From positions 1-40,378 of the forward strand of contig MPMU01000013.1 in NCBI GenBank assembly GCA_002238665.1: a DNA stretch of 40,378 nt, read 5' to 3'. A program made the position numbers and the translations under genes. A model generated the notes under the pieces. The model ran no database searches and was not told the DNA's origin. It saw only the letters and a program-made list of their open reading frames with translations. The DNA comes from Gammaproteobacteria bacterium bin55 (GTDB taxonomy: Bacteria > Pseudomonadota > Gammaproteobacteria > Pseudomonadales > Azotimanducaceae). Positions 17,280 to 18,929 of this stretch are shown in pieces; position 1 is the first letter of the stretch; each line of letters begins with the position of its first letter.

Positions 17280-17552
17280 CTATTTAGCCCTATCTCGCTT
17301 GTACTGGCGATGGTATGCGTTGTAGCGCTCCCGGTTTTCCGTATTCCACTTTTTTGTTCTGGCGATGTGCTTTTCTCTGTTCGTTTGGTGATATTTTTTT
17401 TTGTACTGTTTATACTCAGGTGAACTCCAACGTCTACGCAACTGCTTTCTAAGAGCTGTCTTCGCGCACTCAGCAGAACAGTATTTAGTCCGCCTTATAA
17501 CGGCCCTATCGTAGGAGTTACCACACTCTAAACACTCTTTAATTGCTGTCAT
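17280..17552 (-). CDS. Small phage-type zinc-ribbon protein, 90 aa
   Basis: No assigned function. The N-terminal third has a C-x2-C...C-x3-C zinc site (KECLECGNSYDR, then RTKYCSAECAK). The rest is highly basic and rich in Tyr, Lys and Arg, with a repeated N-R-E-K/N-R-E-R pattern (HQTNREKHIARTKK, NTENRERYNAYHRQYKRD). This resembles the leader part of phage HNH-type proteins, but no HNH motif is present. It lies immediately upstream of the decayed methyltransferase on the same strand. A mobile-element-like end begins 9 nt upstream of its ATG, so its native ribosome site and promoter have probably been displaced. It may be a relic that is no longer expressed. Confidence 0.65.
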   Translation of the reverse strand: MTAIKECLECGNSYDRAVIRRTKYCSAECAKTALRKQLRRRWSSPEYKQYKKKYHQTNREKHIARTKKWNTENRERYNAYHRQYKRDRAK

Positions 17553-17560
17553 TTAATAGA

Positions 17561-17693
17561 AGAGTCTGTTGAAAAATGTGGATTCTCAACAAAAATCGGA
17601 AATGTAAATCACTATAAATATTTGATATATAACGTTTTCAGGTAAATAATTCAACCGAGAATTCATTCAAAAGCGACTATTTCAACAGTCTCT
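17561..17693. mobile_element. MITE-like element, ~133 bp
   Basis: Terminal inverted repeats: the left end AGAGTCTGTTGAAAAA and the right end, read inward, AGAGACTGTTGAAATA. They agree at 14 of 16 positions. Such (G)AGxCTGTTGAAA termini are typical of insertion-sequence ends. The interior is AT-rich and too short for a transposase, so this is a non-autonomous element or a pair of IS ends left after deletion. No clean target-site duplication is visible; TAATA occurs near both ends but not in register. It separates the phage-like genes from the peroxiredoxin. Confidence 0.65.
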
Positions 17694-17777
17694 AATACCT
17701 CTTTAATATCCATGTGAAGTCCGGATATGAACTCCTCAACATCTGAATTATGGTTCCCAGTTTTACGATAATAGGGG

Positions 17778-18248
17778 TCAAGAATAAGCCTGAAGAGCTT
17801 CCAGCACCTTTGCCGGGTGATCAGCAGCTTTTGCCACTCGTCGCCAGTGTTTTTTCACGATACCTTCCGGGTCAATCCAGACCGTGGAACGGATTACGCC
17901 TTGGGTGACTTTTCCGTACATTTTCTTCTCACCGAATGCGCTGTATTCAGTCATGATCGATTTGTCCGTGTCGCACAGCAGTGTGAATGGCAGACCGTAC
18001 TTATCCGTGAACTTTCTATGTGCCGATTGGCCGTCAGGCGAAACGCCTAAGACTACAGTTCCTGTTTCTTCAATCTCTGACCAGAGATCGCGGAAGCCGC
18101 AAGCTTCCTTCGTTCAGCCAGGGGTGTCATCTCTAGGATAGAAAAAGACAACGACATTTGAACCTTTAAAATCGGATAATGAAACTACGTTGCCTTCGGC
18201 ATCCTCTAACGAGAAGTTAGGTGCAGGTTTGCCTTCCTCAATCGCCAT
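17778..18248 (-). CDS. bcp: Selenocysteine-containing Bcp-type peroxiredoxin (in-frame UGA = Sec45)
   Basis: Thiol peroxidase of the Bcp/PrxQ family, reducing hydroperoxides in the cytoplasm. Read from the ATG at 18248, the gene is 156 codons long, exactly the size of E. coli Bcp, with one in-frame TGA (18116-18114) at codon 45. The context is [22 protein letters not shown]. In Bcp proteins this position is always the peroxidatic Cys of TPGCT; C50 in KEAC is the resolving Cys. No other stop or frameshift occurs, and residues 46-156 keep family motifs (VVLGVSPDG, FTDKYGLPFTLL, IRSTVWIDPEG). A GGU-loop hairpin starts 23 nt after the UGA. Both point to selenocysteine, not decay. It is divergent from the transglycosylase gene. 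Confidence 0.88.
18071..18090 (-). promoter_or_regulatory. Bacterial SECIS element in the peroxiredoxin mRNA
   Basis: The mRNA strand reads CGATCTCT-GGTC-AGAGATTG: an 8-bp stem (seven Watson-Crick pairs and one G-U) closed by a GGUC loop. The loop starts 31 nt after the UGA, inside the 16-37 nt window known for bacterial SECIS elements, and has the G-rich GGU apex recognised by SelB in E. coli fdhF. A second perfect hairpin, GGAAGC-TTGCG-GCTTCC, lies between the UGA and this one (18092-18108). Confidence 0.82.
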
Positions 18249-18299
18249 CTAGTTCTCCGAGTAGTTGAATAAAGCTGTTAGTCAACAGGAAGTTGATTT

Positions 18300-18929
18300 G
18301 TGAATATTTCAAGGATGATCAGATATTCCCGTTGGTTTTTAATTGTATGCCTATTCATTTCGTTGTTAGGCTGTGGATTCGGAGGACCTCCTTCTAACAC
18401 GGCCGATGCTTGCAAGATCTTTCAGGAGAAACGGAGTTGGTACCGTGCCGCGGTCGCAACTGAACGCAAATGGCGGATCCCGGTTCCCATATTAATGAGC
18501 GTTATTAAAAAAGAATCCAGCTTTCAAGCGAAGGCACGCCCAAAACGCAAGAAAGGTTTTTTAGGACTGCCTGGTCCTAGACCGTCCACGGCGTTTGGCT
18601 ATGCTCAGGCAAAGAACGAAACTTGGGGTGATTACATCAAGAGAACTAAGAACCGGGGGGCATCTAGGAGCAATTTCAGAGATGCGATAGATTTTGTTGG
18701 CTGGTATTTAGACACTGCGGCAAGGACCAACGGTATCTCGCGTAATTCTGCACACAATCTCTACATCTCCTATCACGAGGGATTTACCGGCTATCGCATC
18801 GGTCGTTGGCGTAGCGGTGGCTTTGTAGTAGGAGCAGCCGCAGCAGTGCAAAAACAAGCTAACGTATATGCCCAGCAATTGCAAAACTGTCGGCGTGGTC
18901 CTGCGCGAAGATACCGTCGAATTCGATAA
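18300..18929 (+). CDS. Lytic transglycosylase-like lipoprotein
   Basis: Predicted outer-membrane or periplasmic lipoprotein with an SLT-type domain that cleaves peptidoglycan glycan strands. The start is GTG 18300 (AGGA 9 nt upstream) or ATG 18315. The N-terminus has a basic stretch, a hydrophobic core (WFLIVCLFISLL) and a lipobox LLGC. The catalytic Glu is in VIKKESSFQAKARP. Further SLT features are TAFGYAQAKNETW and NLYISYHEGFTGY. 209 aa, a short one-domain form with an unusually basic C-terminus (RRGPARRYRRIR). It is divergent from the peroxiredoxin gene with 51 nt between the starts. Confidence 0.85.
   Translation: MNISRMIRYSRWFLIVCLFISLLGCGFGGPPSNTADACKIFQEKRSWYRAAVATERKWRIPVPILMSVIKKESSFQAKARPKRKKGFLGLPGPRPSTAFGYAQAKNETWGDYIKRTKNRGASRSNFRDAIDFVGWYLDTAARTNGISRNSAHNLYISYHEGFTGYRIGRWRSGGFVVGAAAAVQKQANVYAQQLQNCRRGPARRYRRIR

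Follow-up and report, generated by a model that had tools for sequence, protein, structure and literature searches.

We found that a minus-strand gene at positions 17778–18248 of the window (the whole 40,378-nt stretch of DNA analysed here) very probably encodes a selenocysteine (Sec) form of a Bcp/PrxQ-type peroxiredoxin, in which SelB and tRNA-Sec would decode the UGA at codon 45 as directed by a predicted SECIS element with a GGUC loop 31 nt downstream. Because the genome carries the machinery to read UGA as selenocysteine, the gene is very probably intact despite its stop, and a standard annotation would label it broken or split.

The frame, read from 18248 to 17778, comprises 156 codons and a terminal TGA (17778–17780), and its sole internal stop is the TGA at codon 45 (18114–18116), the peroxidatic Cys position, where selenocysteine is predicted. 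The initial annotation had described a 156-codon Bcp frame broken only by this TGA, intact on either side of it and with the resolving Cys present, all of which we recovered on the minus strand, with TGC at codon 50 (18099–18101) as the predicted resolving cysteine (Cys50). Its coordinates were also correct but it had omitted the strand; a plus-strand reading of the same interval contains six stops in frame 1 and was ruled out. Past the terminal TGA the next in-frame stop is a TAA at the fifth codon, and a Shine-Dalgarno-like GGAG (18255–18258), read by eye, lies on the minus strand 6 nt before the ATG. A scan of 17550–18400 gave five promoter-like sites where 1.7 would be expected; one of the five is upstream of the gene and on its strand, minus. 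No terminator was found in this region, and the scan carries no weight in our reading. Downstream of the gene, a minus-strand frame of 90 codons (17280–17552) contains CxxC-type motifs and had no Pfam match at E 0.001.

Written with Cys at residue 45, the protein scored 134.1 bits against PF00578 (AhpC/TSA; cut-off 26). Bcp/PrxQ peroxiredoxins carry a PxxxT(S)xxC motif and, five residues further on, a resolving Cys; the window protein has both, with U replacing C. Its best match among solved structures was 5enu (E 3.1e-34, residues 1–154), and the structure matches ranking after it were chains named bacterioferritin comigratory protein. The protein remained below the NCBIfam cut-offs of PRK09437 (thiol peroxidase; 135.1 bits against 140) and PrxQ NF053650 (164.9 bits against 260), and since it reached neither, we named it 'Bcp/PrxQ-type', a relative and not an equivalog by NCBI's rule.

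Homologues were taken from among the matches listed for 293 genomes of the order and 200 genomes of the family, each set a sample of a larger group, and for 18 genomes of the genus; from named genomes, the 80 best of 574 relatives were retained. The alignment with Bcp homologues that the initial annotation had proposed placed the TGA at the peroxidatic Cys codon: among 163 aligned loci (148 distinct proteins), codon 45 was TGC in 106, TGT in 35 and TGA in 22, giving 141 loci with Cys. No stop other than the codon-45 TGA was seen in the aligned part of the 163 loci, and the TGA always occupied the catalytic codon, both in the window gene and in each of the 21 further TGA homologues of the alignment. 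Twenty of the 22 TGA genes were fetched because they were listed with TGA, the other two being the window gene and locus L108, and 22/163 is therefore no frequency. Within the genus, TGA was found in one of the 18 genomes, that of the window; the Cys-type Bcp proteins of this genus are 57–69% identical to the window protein but have TGC or TGT at codon 45 in all 17 other genomes.

Some entries changed on fetching. A locus first listed with TGA (genome G194, L183) proved to carry TGT as codon 45, and its aligned part is free of stops. Seven rows of the order search were listed with TAA or TAG. Of these, L027, L030 and L038 were fetched and showed no stop in the aligned part; the other four were G193, G253, G273 and G098. 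L108, a Bcp from Deltaproteobacteria bin85, belongs to clade A; it has TGA as codon 45, reads TSG in place of TPG and lacks Cys50, and its genome has selB over the cut-off.

The genome of the window is a 2.93-Mb draft of 183 contigs, 87.8% complete, with the window on contig C30. The initial annotation had called for a search of this genome for the Sec machinery and had tied its reading to the presence of selB and tRNA-Sec; the reading stands, as both were found together with selA and selD on a single contig, C133. The scores were 537.2 bits for selA (cut-off 267.9), 409.1 for selB (cut-off 242.25), 284.6 for selD (cut-off 125) and 69.1 for tRNA-Sec(UCA) (gathering score 47), and ARAGORN also found a tRNA-Sec with anticodon tca in this genome. 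On C133, selA and selB are adjacent, overlapping by their mechanical ORF ends, and tRNA-Sec lies about 50 nt beyond selB. All 18 genomes of the genus gave a selB match with an E value of 1e-60 or better. In the family, 16 of the 21 genomes with a TGA-Bcp have selB, as do 160 of the 200 genomes overall; since selB is common in the family, the co-occurrence carries little weight, and we dropped it as evidence. In five of the 21 (L154 in G385, L158 in G368, L165 in G408, L153 in G468 and L167 in G449), selB over the cut-off was not found; completeness is given as 93–96% for three of the five, one of the three being in 8 contigs.

Among eight AhpC/TSA matches in the 88% complete genome, one gene was Bcp-like, and the next-best match aligned to the window protein at the level of 28% identity over 108 residues. 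Two further genes of this genome (L186 and L192) have one in-frame TGA each, placed in a redox motif, and encode an AhpC/TSA protein with DWUPFC (Pfam 88 bits, cut-off 26; below every NCBIfam cut-off) and a UGSC family protein (Pfam 158.9 bits, cut-off 25; NCBIfam UGSC_fam 166.2, cut-off 125). Both are followed by a hairpin, read by eye, with a GU-holding loop that starts 20–21 nt after the UGA. The selD match (L010, 189–2378 of C133) falls within a frame of 729 residues that extends far on the N-terminal side, reminiscent of the Ndh-SelD fusions mentioned in a passage of PMC2398784, and it reads CGGCGAK, with Cys and not Sec. No Sec formate dehydrogenase appeared among the four molybdopterin matches of the genome, none of which has an internal stop. 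A 2006 statement holds that Sec decoders without FdhA have Sec-SelD (PMC1794560, in the part concerned), and given the Cys-SelD and the lack of an internal stop in the four molybdopterin matches, this genome, only 88% complete, may be an exception.

The predicted SECIS hairpin occupies 18071–18090 on the minus strand and reads CGAUCUCU[GGUC]AGAGAUUG from 18090 to 18071, with eight pairs, one of them G-U, and the apical loop at 18082–18079. This is the 8-bp stem with a GGUC loop 31 nt past the UGA that had been picked out from the letters alone, and folding of 18113–18071 by RNAfold, a check proposed at the same time, returned exactly this hairpin and a second one between it and the UGA (GGAAGCU-UGC-GGCUUCC, 18092–18108, minus strand). 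The fold has an energy of −17.4 kcal/mol (z −2.32), equalled by 2 of 200 dinucleotide shuffles, and the 21-nt hairpin alone has −7.7 kcal/mol, equalled by 9 of 200. The hairpin agrees in full with the published model of bacterial SECIS elements (4-nt loop GGUC, 8 bp, 31 nt), its energy of about −7.5 to −7.7 kcal/mol being borderline, just at the limit of the model. A second genome carrying this hairpin, from which covariation could be read, was not found.

We then counted GU-loop hairpins of at least this strength (limit −7.4 kcal/mol) with the loop 16–37 nt after the codon considered. None was found in the 101 distinct Cys homologues of the clade, and they arose in 27 of 10,000 synonymous recodings of the window stretch and after 53 of 9,100 codons (0.6%) in 20 window genes; slightly wider limits gave 21 of 10,000 recodings and none of 116 Cys loci. 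Under the published GG-or-GU loop rule, 2 of the 101 Cys homologues, 79 of 10,000 recodings and 61 of 9,100 window-gene codons passed; when a G at either of the first two places of the loop sufficed, 8 of the 101 Cys homologues and 395 of 10,000 recodings did. By these looser rules, SECIS-like hairpins are not rare in Cys relatives. The −7.4 kcal/mol limit was reached by only 2 of the 22 TGA genes, and the test is thus a demanding one of low sensitivity. Over the 57 nt that follow the UGA, the total folding energy was matched in 29 of the 116 Cys loci and in 53 of 2,000 recodings; since so many Cys loci fold equally low, the signal lies in the type of hairpin and not in overall folding. One Cys gene, L134, has nearly the same stem as the window hairpin with the loop GGAA. 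Codon 57 of the window gene, TCA (Ser), supplies half of the GGUC loop as well as one of the two bases that close it. This position is Asp, Asn, Ala or Gly in ten LW-bearing congeners and Thr in L058 (RW); Ser occurs in 11 of 103 clade-A proteins, encoded by TCA in two including the window gene, which is suggestive only.

The loop position sets the window gene apart. Its loop is at +32, compared with +20/+21 in the two other TGA candidates of its own genome and +22 for the best GU loop in all 20 fetched TGA-Bcp genes of the family (L149–L168), where the loop is CGUGA or CGUGAUC on several different stems of −2.3 to −8.3 kcal/mol. These family genes resemble the window gene in having TGA at the same codon and a GU loop after it, but they are 42–48% identical to it, lie on other branches of the tree, and lack Cys50, which the window gene keeps, in 9 of 20 cases. 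The scan found no GU-loop hairpin in L108. The hairpin at 18108–18092 possibly acts as a spacer.

The window gene shows no sign of relaxed constraint. At 52 columns conserved to at least 95% in clade A its protein has no departure, which holds for 75 further rows of the 103 as well. Its differences by codon position are like those between Cys pairs: compared with six relatives, 0.14–0.19 of second and 0.61–0.64 of third positions differ, against 0.19–0.22 and 0.57–0.69 in four Cys-Cys pairs. This state of the gene speaks against a recent nonsense mutation from TGC or TGT to TGA, which would have left a fresh pseudogene with a 44-residue fragment. Such a mutation would fit the restriction of TGA to one genus genome beside 17 with Cys, a SECIS spacing unlike that of other Sec genes and a total folding energy that is not unusual (29/116 Cys loci), but the TGA falls on the catalytic Cys codon out of 156 in a Sec-decoding genome, a SECIS-like hairpin stands at the published spacing, and no other damage is seen; we consider this explanation improbable.

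The codon-45 call is based on one genome, a draft in 183 contigs, and a sequencing or assembly error concealing a true TGC or TGT might be suspected. An error would not, however, create a GU-loop hairpin of a strength seen in none of the 101 distinct Cys relatives, and we regard it as more improbable still. The open frame obtained when TGA is read as a residue would also result if UGA were generally read as an amino acid such as Trp, with no selenium involved, but 7 of the 26 window genes taken as real end in TGA, as does this one, and selA, selB, selD and tRNA-Sec are present, so that this reading is scarcely credible. The initial annotation had taken the gene for that of a true selenoprotein, and the machinery, the TGA at the catalytic codon and the hairpin together support this view; from them we infer Sec decoding, by which the protein would incorporate selenium.

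The tree built from the 148 proteins requires five changes to account for the 22 Sec forms (bootstrap 4–5), and the starred branches alone force only two changes among the 22 TGA genes. One origin for all 22, as a single clade, was rejected (p-AU 0.00086). The window gene sits among Cys forms; its neighbour, weakly supported (87/63), is the congeneric Cys form L058. We searched for five window neighbour proteins at 103 loci of differing reach, the short congener stretches L169–L182 being left out. The Cys-type congener Bcp loci of five genomes share the transglycosylase and FAA-hydrolase neighbours with the window: both genes lie beside bcp at six loci (L023, L024/L146, L026, L105 and L106), all with Cys at codon 45, and the alcohol dehydrogenase is also kept in four of the six and the DinG-type helicase in three. 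None of the five neighbour genes was found at L108, nor at the locus of L058 and its longer copy L078.

Judged from sequence, a Cys-to-Sec switch at a kept bcp locus would be the simplest reading; alternatively, a related gene may have replaced the resident bcp, or the window gene may share its origin with L108, a constraint that the tree test did not reject (p-AU 0.372). Most likely the Cys codon became a Sec codon in a lineage already equipped with the Sec machinery, and both the direction and the recency of the switch are ones that we infer. The sulphur-to-selenium switch looks peculiar to one species of the genus. A fuller scenario, which we hold tentatively and rate somewhat short of probable, is a lineage-specific Cys-to-Sec conversion at an order-conserved bcp locus, in which the SECIS was newly built in the LWSEI codons, displaced 10 nt downstream relative to the family's other Sec-Bcp genes, the extra hairpin may return the loop toward the ribosome, and one species of 18 in the genus became selenium-dependent for its only Bcp. 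We weighed this scenario lower because L058, the nearest Cys form in the tree, is without the neighbour genes.

In E. coli Bcp and PrxQ enzymes, the peroxidatic residue is resolved by a second Cys, with recycling by thioredoxin. In the window protein, the selenolate at residue 45 would attack the peroxide, Cys50 would resolve the product and thioredoxin would recycle the enzyme. If the Sec reading is true, a redox enzyme exchanged sulphur for selenium inside a single genus, and comparison with the 17 Cys congeners allows the order of events (codon change and SECIS building) to be studied; the gene would, in addition, indicate how much latitude there is in SECIS position among selenoproteins served by one SelB.

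Sec peroxiredoxins have been described before. PrxU of Eubacterium acidaminophilum, reportedly described by Sohling in 2001, is like the window protein a Sec peroxiredoxin, but it belongs to a different Prx subfamily, the window protein scoring 48 bits against a cut-off of 270 for NCBIfam PrxU (NF040737). The selenoproteome surveys of the Sargasso Sea and of Global Ocean Sampling are said to have dealt with environmental sequence, genus-level context not being their subject. Sec peroxiredoxins of COG1225 (Bcp) have been catalogued from 2005 on, and in the passages concerned, Prx (COG1225, TxxU) counts 43 genes in the Sargasso Sea data, as the second most abundant known selenoprotein family (PMC1088965), and 253 genes in the Global Ocean Sampling data (PMC2398784). 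The general claim of the initial annotation, that Sec replaces the catalytic Cys in some bacterial peroxiredoxins, agrees with the entry 'Peroxiredoxin, COG1225 (Bcp), TxxU' in a table of a 2022 review (PMC9312934). Cys-to-Sec conversions have been counted as outnumbering the reverse, with 33 against 15 events, and 15 of the 17 families in that count are homologues of thiol redox proteins (PMC1794560, in the part on conversions). The marine Sec peroxiredoxins share with the window gene the same COG1225, TxxU with Sec at the peroxidatic position and a bacterial SECIS, as far as the relevant passages describe them (PMC1088965, PMC2398784 and PMC9312934), a likeness of family and motif and not of individual sequences. 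The type of enzyme is thus already known, and the unusual point of the window gene is the position of its SECIS.
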